From a virus, in IMG/VR virus record IMGVR_UViG_3300038954_000074, positions 1 through 24,284 of that record: a stretch of DNA of 24,284 bases. The stretch is one strand, 5' to 3'. The notes beneath the pieces are model-generated. The model was not told the DNA's origin and did no database searches. It saw only the letters and a list, made by a program, of their open reading frames with translations. Below are positions 9,294 to 24,284 of the stretch, piece after piece. Position 1 is the stretch's first letter. Every line of letters starts with the position of its first letter. Position numbers and translations under genes: made by a program.

Positions 9294-9575
9294 CTACCTT
9301 ACAGATTCTTCGTCTGGTACGTCAATGGGCTCCAGCTCCTGCCGGATGTACGCCGCCTGCGCACGTTTCAGCGTTCGTAGCGTGGGGTTCGACTCCGTCT
9401 CCGCTTCGCTGTCAAGCTCATCGGCAATGTGGTTAATTCGAAAGATCATAGCCTTCCGGAGAAACTCGCCGTAGGTTTCGCCGGTCGCCGCCATTACTGC
9501 ACGCATTGCTTCATACGCTGCAGCATGAGCCCGAAAAGATAGGTTCTTCGTGAGATTGCGCTTATCCCGTGCCAT
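9294..9575 (-). CDS. small DNA-binding candidate, ribbon-helix-helix-like
   Basis: A 93-residue protein, MARDKRNLTKNLSFRAHAAA at the start. The order of a short basic strand (KNLSFRAH), a helix (AAAYEAMRAVMAATG) and a second helix (TYGEFLRKAMIFRINHIADEL) is the layout of a ribbon-helix-helix domain such as MobC or Arc proteins. The C-terminal 35 residues are acidic. The start at 9575 is chosen because the upstream in-frame extension is read from within the preceding gene and has no conserved look. As last gene before the terminator it could regulate phage promoters; its target is unknown. Confidence 0.68.
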   Translation of the reverse strand: MARDKRNLTKNLSFRAHAAAYEAMRAVMAATGETYGEFLRKAMIFRINHIADELDSEAETESNPTLRTLKRAQAAYIRQELEPIDVPDEESVR

Positions 9576-12958: not shown

Positions 12959-12987
12959 AATTTAGCACGTCTGCTACTTTATCGCAA
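12959..12987 (-). promoter_or_regulatory. promoter with TAGCA-N4-TGCTA operator in its spacer
   Basis: Minus strand: -35 TTGCGA (12982-12987), 17-bp spacer, -10 TAAATT (12959-12964). The spacer and the first two -10 bases carry the palindrome TAGCAGACGTGCTA (12963-12976). A 24-bp stretch (12959-12982) matches 22 of 24 bases at the promoter 17125-17148. Palindrome placement between -35 and -10 is classic for a repressor site. Expected start is near 12952, directly before the ATG. Confidence 0.75.
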
Positions 12988-17124: not shown

Positions 17125-17153
17125 AATTTAGCACGGCTGCTATTTTATTGCAA
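17125..17153 (-). promoter_or_regulatory. promoter with TAGCA-N4-TGCTA operator in its spacer
   Basis: Minus strand: -35 TTGCAA (17148-17153), 17-bp spacer, -10 TAAATT (17125-17130). Palindrome TAGCAGCCGTGCTA (17129-17142) fills the spacer. Nearly the same sequence as at 12959-12987. It lies in the 54-base gap after the PP-loop gene and starts the operon that contains the methyltransferase. Confidence 0.76.
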
Positions 17154-17910: not shown

Positions 17911-18608
17911 TTTTGCCTCCCTTGGTCGCGATATAGTCGTAGCGGGTTATACGACGGCGCCTGTTCCTCGCCCCGGATGGGGGCCGGGACGGCGATTCCG
18001 AACGCCCGCTCGAAGTACCAGACTGCGATCGCCGCGGCGAGTACGATGTCGTCGTGCTCGCCCTCCTCGGCGCTGTACTTTTCGTTCTTCGCCTGACTGG
18101 TCGTGCGCCTGAATACGCGCAGCTCGTTCTCGAATTGCTCGGCGAGCTCGAGCGCCGGCGCGACCTGCAGCCTGCGATTCTGCGCGACTACCTGCAGGGC
18201 GCTGACGAGATCGCGTTTCGGGACGGTGTAGCCGACCTCGTTCTGCGCTACCGATGTACCGCCGGTGATCGTGACGCCGACCACGGCGATCCCGCCGCCG
18301 ATCATCTGCTGGACCACGGGGTAGCCGACGCCAGTGGCGTCCATCACGATCTGGATGTCCTGCCGGAATAGCTGCGGCATGTCCAGGATAGAGCGGATCC
18401 GCGCGATCAGTTGTCGGTACTCGATACCGAGCGGGAGACGCTCCATCAGCGGTACCTCATACGTCGAGTAGATCATGCGCCGTTCGCTCAGCTCTTCCCA
18501 CGTACCGGGAAGCGCGCGCCCCGGCTGCAGGCGTTCGCTTCTGCGCACGAGCACGATCGCGCTGTGGTCCTGGCGCGTTCCCACGTCCACGCCCATCACG
18601 TACTTCAC
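17907..18608 (-). CDS. terminase large subunit, nuclease domain as separate gene
   Basis: A 233-residue protein that begins immediately at the RNase-H-like nuclease domain: YVMGVDVGTRQDHSAIVLV (D8, D14), IVMDATGVG (D90) and GEHDDIVLAAAIA (D186, D187). These are the acidic residues that bind two metals and cut the genome at packaging ends. The start is GTG at 18608, overlapping the stop of the preceding gene as GTGA; the longer open frame upstream is a shadow of that gene. The ATPase half of the terminase is a different gene, 515 bases away (19123-19926). Confidence 0.88.
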   Translation of the reverse strand: MKYVMGVDVGTRQDHSAIVLVRRSERLQPGRALPGTWEELSERRMIYSTYEVPLMERLPLGIEYRQLIARIRSILDMPQLFRQDIQIVMDATGVGYPVVQQMIGGGIAVVGVTITGGTSVAQNEVGYTVPKRDLVSALQVVAQNRRLQVAPALELAEQFENELRVFRRTTSQAKNEKYSAEEGEHDDIVLAAAIAVWYFERAFGIAVPAPIRGEEQAPSYNPLRLYRDQGRQK

Positions 18609-19126
18609 GGCTCGGGTACCTCGTAGCCTTCCGGCCGCGACGCCGGCCTGAATCGGTGATCCATCCAGCGGAGCTCTCGGGCCCGCGCAAGTTCGTCGAT
18701 CTCCATGGGATCCGGTTGCTGCGCGCTCCCTCCCCATGCGGCATCGGCTATCGCGGTACATAGGCCGAACCATGCTTTCCACGGGATGACCGTGGGCTCT
18801 GACGTTGGCTTGTCCTCGCGCATCCACCACGGATTTGGTACGTCCTCGCGCTTCATCGTGCGCAGCTCTTTCGCATACGCTTCCGCGTTGTCCATCTGTA
18901 CGGCGATCAAGTGCGAGGCACATTCCTCGATCGTCGCGTTGCGAGCTCGTTCTACATAGTCGTCGTTCATTGGTTCCCCCCACTGTATCTTGTATGTTGT
19001 CGTCAACGGATCCGGCCATTTTGTGCCGTAGAGAAGCTCGTTCGATCGTTCTTTGCTCAGCGTCTTGGCGAGTTGGTGCACGTGCGCCTCGATCGCCCGT
19101 TTGCGCATTTCGTCTATCATGCTCAT
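18605..19126 (-). CDS. unknown gene inserted between the two terminase halves
   Basis: A 173-residue protein, MSMIDEMRKRAIEAHVHQLAKTLSKERS at the start. It has a middle segment DYVERARNATIEECASHLIAVQMDNAEAYAKELRTM, a WKAWFGLCTAIADAAWGG block and a DHRFRPASRPEGYEVPEP tail. The Ala-Glu-Cys helical segment resembles small accessory phage proteins that carry AAIEECA-type helices. No homing-endonuclease motif (HNH, LAGLIDADG, GIY-YIG) is visible, and the gene has overlapping start and stop (ATGA upstream, GTGA downstream), so it is coupled to both terminase parts. ATG 19126 chosen by that overlap; 19120 possible. Confidence 0.75.
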   Translation of the reverse strand: MSMIDEMRKRAIEAHVHQLAKTLSKERSNELLYGTKWPDPLTTTYKIQWGEPMNDDYVERARNATIEECASHLIAVQMDNAEAYAKELRTMKREDVPNPWWMREDKPTSEPTVIPWKAWFGLCTAIADAAWGGSAQQPDPMEIDELARARELRWMDHRFRPASRPEGYEVPEP

Positions 19127-19926
19127 AGCGCCTCTACCTCCGGATTCATGATCGTGTGCTCGCCCTCTTCGCCAAGCGGCTTCACGTCGTTGTCGAACAT
19201 ATCCCGGATCTGTTCGGCTGTGAAAGTCGCACCTTCGGGGTCCACGAACTCGGCCAGATACTCGCGCCTGAACTGGTAGTCCGGCGTGAGTAGCTGTTTT
19301 CGCTCGATCCATTCGCGCGGCACGCGCTCGCTCTCCCATACGGTGACGCGATAGCGGCTCCAGTACGGGTCGTCTCCGGTAGCGATCTTGTAGAAAAAGC
19401 CGGTCGTCTCGTAGGCGCTCGAGAGTAGAATGATCTGCCCGTTCGTCTGCAGGACCATCGGCTCGACCGCATAGTAGAGCTCGTCCTCGGCGAACGCGGC
19501 CTCATCGACTATGAGCATGGTCACATCCGACCACGATCGCGACGTCTTCGGGTCGCCGGGGAGCGCGACCATCCGGGCCCCGTTGAGAAACTCGATCTCG
19601 GTGCGTAGCTCCTTCTTGATCGGCAAGCCGGCGTGCTGGATATGCTGCTTCGCCTTCCGCATCAGATTGATCGATTGCTGCTGCGTGTCTGAGAAGATCA
19701 GCGCAAGACCGTTCGGTGTGGTCGCGCAGTGCTGGCTCGCCTTCAACGATACGGTGAAGGATTTGCCGATCTGCCGGCTGCAGGTGATACAGATTCGCCG
19801 CTCTGAGTCTCTGAGTATGTCCGCCTGCCATCCTTCCGGCTCGACGCCCATGCGCTCGCGCACGAACGCAACGGGGTCGAGATTGATCCGGATGGATTCA
19901 AGCACTCTCGCGGCGACGGAAGACAC
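19123..19926 (-). CDS. terminase large subunit, ATPase domain as separate gene
   Basis: A 267-residue DNA-packaging motor protein. Walker A CSRQIGKS (49-56), Walker B TMLIVDEAAF (136-145, D141/E142) and coupling motif IILLSSAYE (165-173) are present. The sequence ends at FRREYLAEFVDPEGATFTAEQI plus about 20 residues, the point where the linker to the nuclease domain normally begins, so the nuclease is absent. It begins with GTG at 19926, GGAGGAG seven bases upstream, and overlaps the small subunit gene by 29 bases. Function requires the nuclease gene at 17907-18608. Confidence 0.9.
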   Translation of the reverse strand: MSSVAARVLESIRINLDPVAFVRERMGVEPEGWQADILRDSERRICITCSRQIGKSFTVSLKASQHCATTPNGLALIFSDTQQQSINLMRKAKQHIQHAGLPIKKELRTEIEFLNGARMVALPGDPKTSRSWSDVTMLIVDEAAFAEDELYYAVEPMVLQTNGQIILLSSAYETTGFFYKIATGDDPYWSRYRVTVWESERVPREWIERKQLLTPDYQFRREYLAEFVDPEGATFTAEQIRDMFDNDVKPLGEEGEHTIMNPEVEAL

Positions 19927-23094: not shown

Positions 23095-23345
23095 CCGCTG
23101 CGCCCCTTTTTCCAACCCGTCGCTGGTGTGACGTACTTTGACTTTTCGACGTTCTTTGCTGCGCCTCGTGCATACTCGAAGTGCTCGAGACAAAGCGCCT
23201 TCGTCGGCCGTGAAACATAGCCGTAGGCCGGCTTGCCGCATGCCCGCATGCCGTTGATCTCCTTGTCGTATTCCTCGAATGTGCACGTGAAGAACTCGGC
23301 AAACGCCTTTTCGGCGTTCTCGGTCATGGGTTCAGCGAATAGCAT
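23091..23345 (-). CDS. first early-operon gene, small Cys/His protein
   Basis: An 84-residue protein, MLFAEPMTENAEKAFAEFFT at the start. The middle, RACGKPAYGYVSRPTKALCLEHFEYA (C36, C52, H55), resembles the small CGxPA...LCxxH zinc-binding motif common in phage proteins. It is the first gene after the early regulatory region, with AGGAGG about ten bases before the ATG, so it should be the earliest product of the leftward promoter. Function unknown. Confidence 0.73.
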   Translation of the reverse strand: MLFAEPMTENAEKAFAEFFTCTFEEYDKEINGMRACGKPAYGYVSRPTKALCLEHFEYARGAAKNVEKSKYVTPATGWKKGRSG

Positions 23346-23413
23346 ATCTGGTGCCCTCCTGGTCAGTGTTGACGATAGGGGCTCTGCATGTAGTGCGGCG
23401 ATGCGAATCGGGC

Positions 23414-23442
23414 TTGCGGTTGTCGGCGGGATTGTGTATTCT
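23414..23442 (+). promoter_or_regulatory. plus-strand promoter opposing the early transcript
   Basis: -35 TTGCGG (23414-23419), 17-bp spacer, -10 TATTCT (23437-23442). It points away from all protein genes, toward the plus-strand terminator at 23490-23522. Match to consensus is moderate, but the spacing is ideal and the terminator downstream gives it meaning. Confidence 0.5.
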
Positions 23443-23448
23443 ACGCTC

Positions 23449-23522
23449 GATCATAGCCGTACTTCATGATCAGTTTCCCCCATCCCTCTGCCCGGCGCCC
23501 TCCACGCCGGGCTTTCTTTTCT
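23449..23522 (+). ncRNA. candidate antisense small RNA over the early leader
   Basis: Predicted from the promoter at 23414-23442 and the terminator at 23490-23522: about 74 nt. It would contain a GATCAT / ATGATC hairpin (23449-23471), a C-rich single-stranded segment TTTCCCCCATCCCTCT and the terminator stem. It is complementary to the 5' leader of the leftward early transcript. No coding frame with a Shine-Dalgarno was found. Comparable phage RNAs are OOP of lambda and Sar of P22. Expression is unproven. Confidence 0.5.
23490..23522 (+). terminator. rho-independent terminator on the plus strand
   Basis: Perfect stem GCCCGGCG (23490-23497) / CGCCGGGC (23505-23512), seven-base loop, followed by TTTCTTTTCT. 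A U-tract is present only for plus-strand transcription, although all protein genes here are on the minus strand, which implies a plus-strand transcript. Confidence 0.88.
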
Positions 23523-23529
23523 CGAGTCC

Positions 23530-23578
23530 GTAGCATCCCTTGCTACTCCATATCCGCCTCCTCCCGTAGGCTTCTACG
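23530..23578. promoter_or_regulatory. two palindromes in the early leader
   Basis: GTAGCA-TCCCT-TGCTAC (23530-23546), of the same class as the palindrome over the -10 box, and CGTAG-GCTT-CTACG (23565-23578), which shares the GCCTACG half-site with the operator next to it. Both lie downstream of the leftward start point, suitable for additional repressor binding. Confidence 0.6.
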
Positions 23579-23583
23579 TTAAT

Positions 23584-23607
23584 TCGAGCCTACGTTTGTA
23601 GGCTCGA
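23584..23607. promoter_or_regulatory. main early operator, 24-bp perfect palindrome
   Basis: Arms TCGAGCCTAC and GTAGGCTCGA, ten bases each, separated by GTTT, placed directly downstream of the -10 box of the leftward early promoter, where bound protein would block transcription. A 17-bp part recurs at 21915-21931, next to the ribbon-helix-helix regulator gene. Confidence 0.78.
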
Positions 23608-23636
23608 TTGTAGCGGGGATGCTACTTTACCGTCAA
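23607..23636 (-). promoter_or_regulatory. leftward early promoter
   Basis: Minus strand: -35 TTGACG (23631-23636), 18-bp spacer, -10 TACAAT (23607-23612). The best match to sigma70 consensus in the window. The spacer shares TAAAGTAGCA with the promoters at 12959 and 17125, and a palindrome GTAGC-GGGGAT-GCTAC (23610-23625) covers the -10 box. The start is expected near 23600, inside the operator, leaving a leader of about 255 bases before the first gene. Confidence 0.82.
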
Positions 23637-23644
23637 GCTCGTCC

Positions 23645-23848
23645 TTACGACGAGCCGCCGGTTTGGTTGCTCGGCTTCTTCGGTGGTATCCATTCGATCC
23701 CCGCCCAGGTGTCGAGCACGATCACGATGATCACCGTGACCGCATCCCACCATTCCAGCGGCCATCCGTAGATCACCGCCAGACCGAGAATCGCGGACGC
23801 CACGAGATTCAGCACGAGCACGATCAGTCGCTTGATCTGATCTGACAT
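23645..23848 (-). CDS. small two-segment membrane protein, holin candidate
   Basis: A 67-residue protein, MSDQIKRLIVLVLNLVASAI at the start, with hydrophobic segments about 8-27 and 32-52 (LEWWDAVTVIIVIVLDTWAG) and a polar PPKKPSNQTGGSS tail. Size and two hydrophobic stretches fit a small holin, or an accessory to one. The ATG at 23848 is chosen over a TTG ten codons upstream because GAGGAGG lies right before it. It is the last gene before the early regulatory region. Confidence 0.7.
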   Translation of the reverse strand: MSDQIKRLIVLVLNLVASAILGLAVIYGWPLEWWDAVTVIIVIVLDTWAGIEWIPPKKPSNQTGGSS

Positions 23849-23890: not shown

Positions 23891-24284
23891 CTATTCCTCG
23901 TCGCGGCTGCGCCGCGCTGCATCCTCGAATCGGGATTGAATCTGGCGCTGGTCGCGCTCGCCCTGGGATCCTCCGTAGAGGAAATCGACGATTGTGTTCA
24001 CCTTCGTGCTCATCGCGGTGAATACGCTCGTGATCAGCACGATCGCCCATTGCGGCAAGTCCATCGCCACCACGGCGGCCGGGAATAACGAGAGCACGAG
24101 CCATAGCATGATCCCGCTGATCGCGAGATACCCGGCAAGGAAAACGACCGCAAACGCCTTCTGCAGTCCTGAATCCTTTTCGTACATGGCTCGGGCGCTT
24201 GCGCGGTCTTCGAGATACGCCTGCTCGAGATCCATCCGGAACTTCTGCAGCTCCAGGTTCACGCGGCGCAACGCGAGCTCGGCC
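23891..24284 (-). CDS. membrane protein with charged ends, holin-like (5' end outside window)
   Basis: The open frame enters from the right edge, so the true start is outside; a TTG at 24271 is the first internal candidate but continuation AELALRRVN looks like coding sequence. It has an N-terminal charged helix (LEQAYLEDRASARAMYEKDS), two hydrophobic segments (about KAFAVVFLAGYLAISGIMLWLVLSLF and WAIVLITSVFTAMS) and then VNTIVDFLYGGSQGERDQRQ. The last part resembles the cytoplasmic segment of phage holin-like proteins with a VDFxxGSS-type turn. Pairing with the small membrane gene next door suggests a lysis module. Confidence 0.68.
   Translation of the reverse strand, partial: AELALRRVNLELQKFRMDLEQAYLEDRASARAMYEKDSGLQKAFAVVFLAGYLAISGIMLWLVLSLFPAAVVAMDLPQWAIVLITSVFTAMSTKVNTIVDFLYGGSQGERDQRQIQSRFEDAARRSRDEE

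Follow-up and report, generated by a model that had tools for sequence, protein, structure and literature searches.

A plus-strand terminator opposite the early-operon leader of an uncultured podovirus-like phage and the antisense RNA that it may end

In an uncultured, podovirus-like phage, the leader of the early operon is faced on its opposite strand by a GC-rich hairpin that, judged from its sequence, is well supported as an intrinsic terminator. Several features can be read directly from the window, which is the whole virus record of 24,284 bases and probably a fragment: the terminator and the direction in which it faces, the promoter of the leader together with operator-like sites, and a plus strand free of genes with known relatives. 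We tentatively favor, while stopping short of calling it probable, the reading that this hairpin is a working terminator that ends plus-strand transcripts of ~65-75 nt begun inside the leader and thereby gives rise to a cis-antisense RNA. This reading draws on a terminator that is directional and far beyond chance, on a tail also found on the one sense-strand terminator that is comparably strong, on two weak overlapping promoter-like sites 40-75 bp upstream of the terminator, and on the existence of phage antisense RNAs of such size (OOP and sar) and of a leader-facing one for dnaA. Since plus-strand genes with a known relative are absent to the left of the terminator, the transcripts that it stops should be non-coding.

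Genomic Context

All protein-family matches in the window lie on the minus strand. They include a RusA-like resolvase, a helicase-loader-like protein, terminase, a PAPS reductase-like protein, and a DNA methyltransferase, along with the structural portal (head-tail adaptor), major head, tail, and internal virion proteins. The portal shares ~26% identity with the portals of Bordetella phage BPP-1 and Pelagibacter podoviruses. The largest plus-strand ORFs gave no matches to PHROGs, in agreement with the initial annotation, which had placed every gene on the minus strand. The terminase large subunit is seemingly split (minus strand, 19926-17907) into two ORFs, one for the ATPase half (19926-19123) and one for the nuclease half (17907 to ~18600). 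About 500 bp separate the two, and an ORF without a known family (within 18605-19339) lies in the interval.

The terminator region sits in a ~300-bp gap that runs from the two right-most ORFs to the 84-aa gene (23345-23091; Table 1). We take these two ORFs as holin-like from their sequence; neither reached a family cut-off.

Table 1. Features of the early control region and its surroundings (positions in the window).
Feature	Position	Strand	Description
Small membrane protein ORF	23891-24283	-	Right-most pair, read from sequence
Small membrane protein ORF	23645-23848	-	Right-most pair, read from sequence
Early promoter	23607-23636	-	TTGACG-18-TACAAT; second-best promoter-like site of the window
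Operator-like palindrome O1	23610-23625	-	GTAGC-N6-GCTAC; between the early-promoter hexamers
10-bp palindrome	23584-23607		TCGAGCCTAC-GTTT-GTAGGCTCGA; over the predicted early start site
Predicted early-operon leader, ~255 nt	23346-23600	-	From promoter position and ORF start; runs up to the 84-aa gene
O2, related copy of O1	23530-23546		GTAGCATCCC TT GCTAC on the plus strand; just past the plus-strand terminator tail
Intrinsic terminator	23490-23522	+	8-bp all-GC stem, 7-nt loop CCCTCCA, U-tract TTTCTTTTCT
Hypothetical antisense RNA, 74 nt (or ~69 nt)	23449-23522	+	Predicted; complements leader nt ~79-152
Weak candidate promoter	23414-23442	+	TTGCGG-17-TATTCT; from the initial annotation; predicted start near 23449; rank 87
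Overlapping weak candidate promoter	23420-23447	+	TTGTCG-16-TACGCT; predicted start near 23454; rank 59
First early-operon gene, 84 aa	23091-23345	-	ORF without known family; RusA-like resolvase gene next

The Plus-Strand Terminator

The hairpin at 23490-23512 reads GCCCGGCG-CCCTCCA-CGCCGGGC and is followed by the tail TTTCTTTTCT, an orientation that fits plus-strand transcription. With an energy of -16.6 kcal/mol and a U-tract score of 3.97, it is one of only two strong terminators that a stricter scan of both strands found in 24 kb, the other being on the minus strand at 9251-9229 (energy -19.2, tail score 3.79). A comparable terminator (energy of -14 or lower and U-tract score of at least 3.5) was found in 0 of 200 window-length dinucleotide shuffles, with one strand scanned per shuffle. 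A loose consensus terminator scan returned four sites, with 4.3 expected, and is uninformative on its own. When the 12 distinct GC-rich perfect hairpins with at least seven pairs are considered, a U-tract adjoins these same two only, and ten-base stretches with at least eight T (or A), of which the tail has eight, make up 4e-5 of the window. The strong plus-strand terminator claimed in the initial annotation thus stands exactly as described.

Both strong terminators have in common the 12 bases GGGCTTTCTTTT, which are absent elsewhere in the window. The minus-strand terminator is located after a gene ending at 9294 and just ahead of a good promoter at 9200-9171; it likely marks the expected early-to-late boundary and ends an operon, and 9251-9171 is likely the boundary of the early/middle and late operons. 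The tail shared with this sense terminator at an operon boundary supports regarding the plus-strand hairpin as a true terminator for plus-strand transcripts. As side observations on the 9251-9171 region, the promoter directly after the terminator (TTGGAA-18-TATAGT) does not carry the spacer palindrome TAGC-N6-GCTA described below, and a weak Rfam anti-hemB match, below the gathering score, covers the terminator itself.

The same hairpin would also be present in the early mRNA, and it is conceivable that it acts there, on the minus strand, in mRNA stability, in attenuation, or as an anti-termination site like HK022 put, the T-run being merely the mirror image of the purine tract GAGAAAAGAAAG. 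The leader does contain several hairpins, of which 23490-23512 is the strongest, and on the minus strand its loop carries GGAGGG. We nevertheless consider a minus-strand role distinctly unlikely, given that runs of eight T or A in ten are so rare, that the T-run directly joins the stem just as it does in the sense terminator at 9251-9229, down to the same 12 bases, and that the leader as a whole folds just slightly better than shuffled sequence (-83.3 kcal/mol, z -1.8).

The Early Leader and Its Operator-Like Sites

From the promoter and the start of the first gene, a minus-strand leader of ~250 nt is credible. The first early gene starts at 23345 behind a GGAGGG site, which places its ribosome site at ~23353-23358. 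Further upstream, leader nt ~79-152 contain G-rich sequence that resembles ribosome sites, together with tiny ORFs of 8-11 codons (judged by eye).

The control region at the head of the leader resembles an array of operators on which a regulator would act. The first 10 bases of O2 form a perfect inverted repeat with O1, and the 100 bp from 23530 hold eight GTAG/CTAC words, whereas across 300 shuffled windows the richest stretch of this length had five. The third palindrome (23584-23607) may be an operator or an RNA hairpin. A core of O1, TAGC-N6-GCTA, lies between the hexamers of three minus-strand promoters, P23607 (early), P17125, and P12959, and these are its only three sites in the window, against a shuffle mean of 0.08. 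These palindrome promoters (23607-23636, 17125-17153, and 12959-12987) are intergenic, and two share TAAATT as their -10. Three promoters with a common spacer palindrome predict a regulon of a phage repressor or activator; no regulator for the operator-like sites was identified in the window. The spacer motif of P17125 and P12959 was absent from every fetched locus, and an 18-base form of the O1/O2 motif had zero sites, as it demands a 3-base gap lacking in both O1 and O2. The palindrome GAGCCTAC-N4-GTAGGCTC had eight matches in viral contigs, which is about the chance expectation. It may also be mentioned that across 23530-23625 a long nested hairpin (GTAGCATCCC/GGGATGCTAC) could be adopted by RNA reading through from the lysis genes but not by RNAs begun at the early promoter.

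The presence of operator-like sites invites the thought that a plus-strand gene, now lost or located elsewhere, once ended at this terminator; a repressor gene that faced the early operon would be an example. Temperate phages often carry a repressor gene facing their early genes, and the sites would imply a regulator that the window does not reveal. However, among the plus-strand ORFs tested there is zero trace of a gene of known family, and the 144 bp to the first early gene are too short for a gene, which makes such a remnant highly improbable.

The plus-strand terminator lies between genes and closely precedes O2 and the early promoter on the plus strand, a position in which plus-strand transcripts would halt just before the operator-like array. 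An alternative possibility is that, without a dedicated RNA gene, it serves to halt stray or long antisense polymerases coming from the early operon, which would be stopped before O2 and the early promoter and would otherwise displace a repressor or collide with an initiating polymerase. This would account for a strong terminator that lacks a convincing promoter and that stands just before O2, ~85 bp ahead of the early promoter -10, and in a synthetic system in E. coli, antisense transcription has been found capable of tuning gene expression (PMC4731013). Against it, weak promoter-like sites are present at the right distance, and of 15 intergenic terminators in the fetched loci only two, which are one shared element, are antisense to both neighbors, a survey that used crude gene calls and is a rough guide. 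The window's own site was unlisted in that survey, probably because a spurious plus-strand ORF spans 23490-23522. On balance, a terminator of this protective kind seems possible but somewhat unlikely.

Candidate Plus-Strand Promoters

A cis-antisense RNA of its own would call for a plus-strand start within the leader. Promoter-like sites were scored with an approximate, self-made sigma-70 weight matrix and ranked over all placements in the window. The top-scoring sites are mostly intergenic and on the minus strand (17153-17125, 23636-23607, 9200-9171, and 12987-12959), which suggests that the matrix works for this phage. The plus-strand promoter proposed in the initial annotation, described as having ideal 17-bp spacing, does have the right spacing; its strength is another matter, as its hexamers match at 3/6 and 4/6 positions, its score is 7.4 (rank 87), and a consensus promoter scan did not report it. 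The overlapping candidate scores 7.98. Sites scoring at least as well as the best one near the plus-strand candidate occur in 16% of 170-nt stretches, and this counts against the antisense reading. A dedicated plus-strand promoter is thus not supported beyond chance, and it is possible that the promoter is weak or depends on an activator.

Properties and Possible Action of the Antisense RNA

The RNA predicted from 23449 to 23522 folds at -22.3 kcal/mol (z -4.8), in keeping with the hairpin of the ~74-nt RNA proposed in the initial annotation. Its full complementarity to the leader, also put forward in that description, is true and at the same time trivial, because the RNA lies on the opposite strand; likewise, its C-richness mirrors the G-rich leader. 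The further proposal that the C-rich part could pair with GGAGG-type ribosome sites in other messages found no support. Across 28 phage start regions, the pairing energies of the predicted RNA were like those of shuffled RNA (z +1.8 to -1.0, with one at -2.1) and no target stood out, so that a trans-acting anti-Shine-Dalgarno RNA is not supported by these phage sites.

To return to the cis-antisense reading, we infer that a plus-strand transcript may start within the early leader and stop at the terminator at 23490-23522, and that the resulting RNA would cover leader nt ~79-152. Pairing of this RNA with the leader could then lead to RNase III cleavage or to altered leader folding or transcription; alternatively, plus-strand transcription could collide with that of the early operon. 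In either case, the net effect would be to lower expression of the early operon at times when its promoter is weak or under repression. Also counted against this reading is that the predicted RNA misses the ribosome site of the first gene, ending ~90 nt short of it, and direct blocking as in P22 Sar is consequently unlikely. Leader cleavage, altered leader folding, or transcriptional interference would each be possible.

A more elaborate version of the same reading combines a repressor bound to O1 and O2 with a dedicated antisense RNA as a double lock on the early operon. The centers of O1 and O2 are ~80 bp apart, a spacing that would suit a DNA loop, and the RNA would end just before the second operator and target the untranslated leader as opposed to the coding region. 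We judge this arrangement quite improbable.

Searches for Relatives

Relatives were sought in phage records, IMG/VR, and bacterial genomes, and the negative results hold at the sensitivity of these searches. Neither megablast and blastn of the leader in phages nor protein-guided scans (RusA, portal, terminase, 84-aa protein, capsid, and holin) showed a relative carrying the leader, which also counts against the antisense reading. The only locus with the same gene order (holin - helicase loader; L109) is AT-rich, and its holin gene is immediately followed by a further ORF. A prophage-like locus with a 58% identical holin-like gene (L033) was set aside, since its sequence is different and the window DNA was not matched. 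In two related viral contigs, a terminator-like hairpin faces against both neighboring genes (L116:5759-5778 and L117:9598-9617).

Comparison With Known Antisense RNAs

Small antisense RNAs of phages are well documented, with OOP at 77 nt and sar at 68/69 nt (PMC12197685), and the four previously reported small RNAs of P22 are all antisense to genes (PMC13397905). The initial annotation had likened the predicted RNA to OOP and Sar, and the well-supported terminator makes a short antisense RNA opposite the early leader a reasonable reading, while the dedicated promoter is not above chance. As in OOP and sar, the terminator lies opposite the target strand. Lambda OOP, for which RNase III-linked cleavage has been proposed (PMC5869508), is similarly a short RNA opposite early genes with an intrinsic hairpin end (tO), and its 77 nt compare with a predicted 74 nt here. 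In contrast, OOP overlaps the 3' end of cII, whereas the RNA described here would face a leader; pO is proven, while the promoter here is weak and the RNA predicted; and the flanking genes differ from those of the lambda region.

P22 sar is likewise small, intergenic, and opposite an operon. Sar hinders initiation of ant translation, whereas the RNA predicted here does not overlap the ribosome site of the first gene. In addition, the site lacks an Rfam match, with covariance models run over 23400-23530 giving none up to E = 1. With respect to its target, the predicted RNA is closer to arrA of Bacillus subtilis dnaA, which is antisense to a 5' leader and likewise lies where protein-binding sites are dense, although arrA has a near-consensus promoter and is much longer, at 270 and 667 nt (PMC12112137). 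An antisense RNA of the kind proposed here would thus be ordinary in kind, its novelty lying in the lineage and in the use of a leader as target. If the RNA is made, control of the OOP and sar kind extends to a phage lineage without studied relatives.
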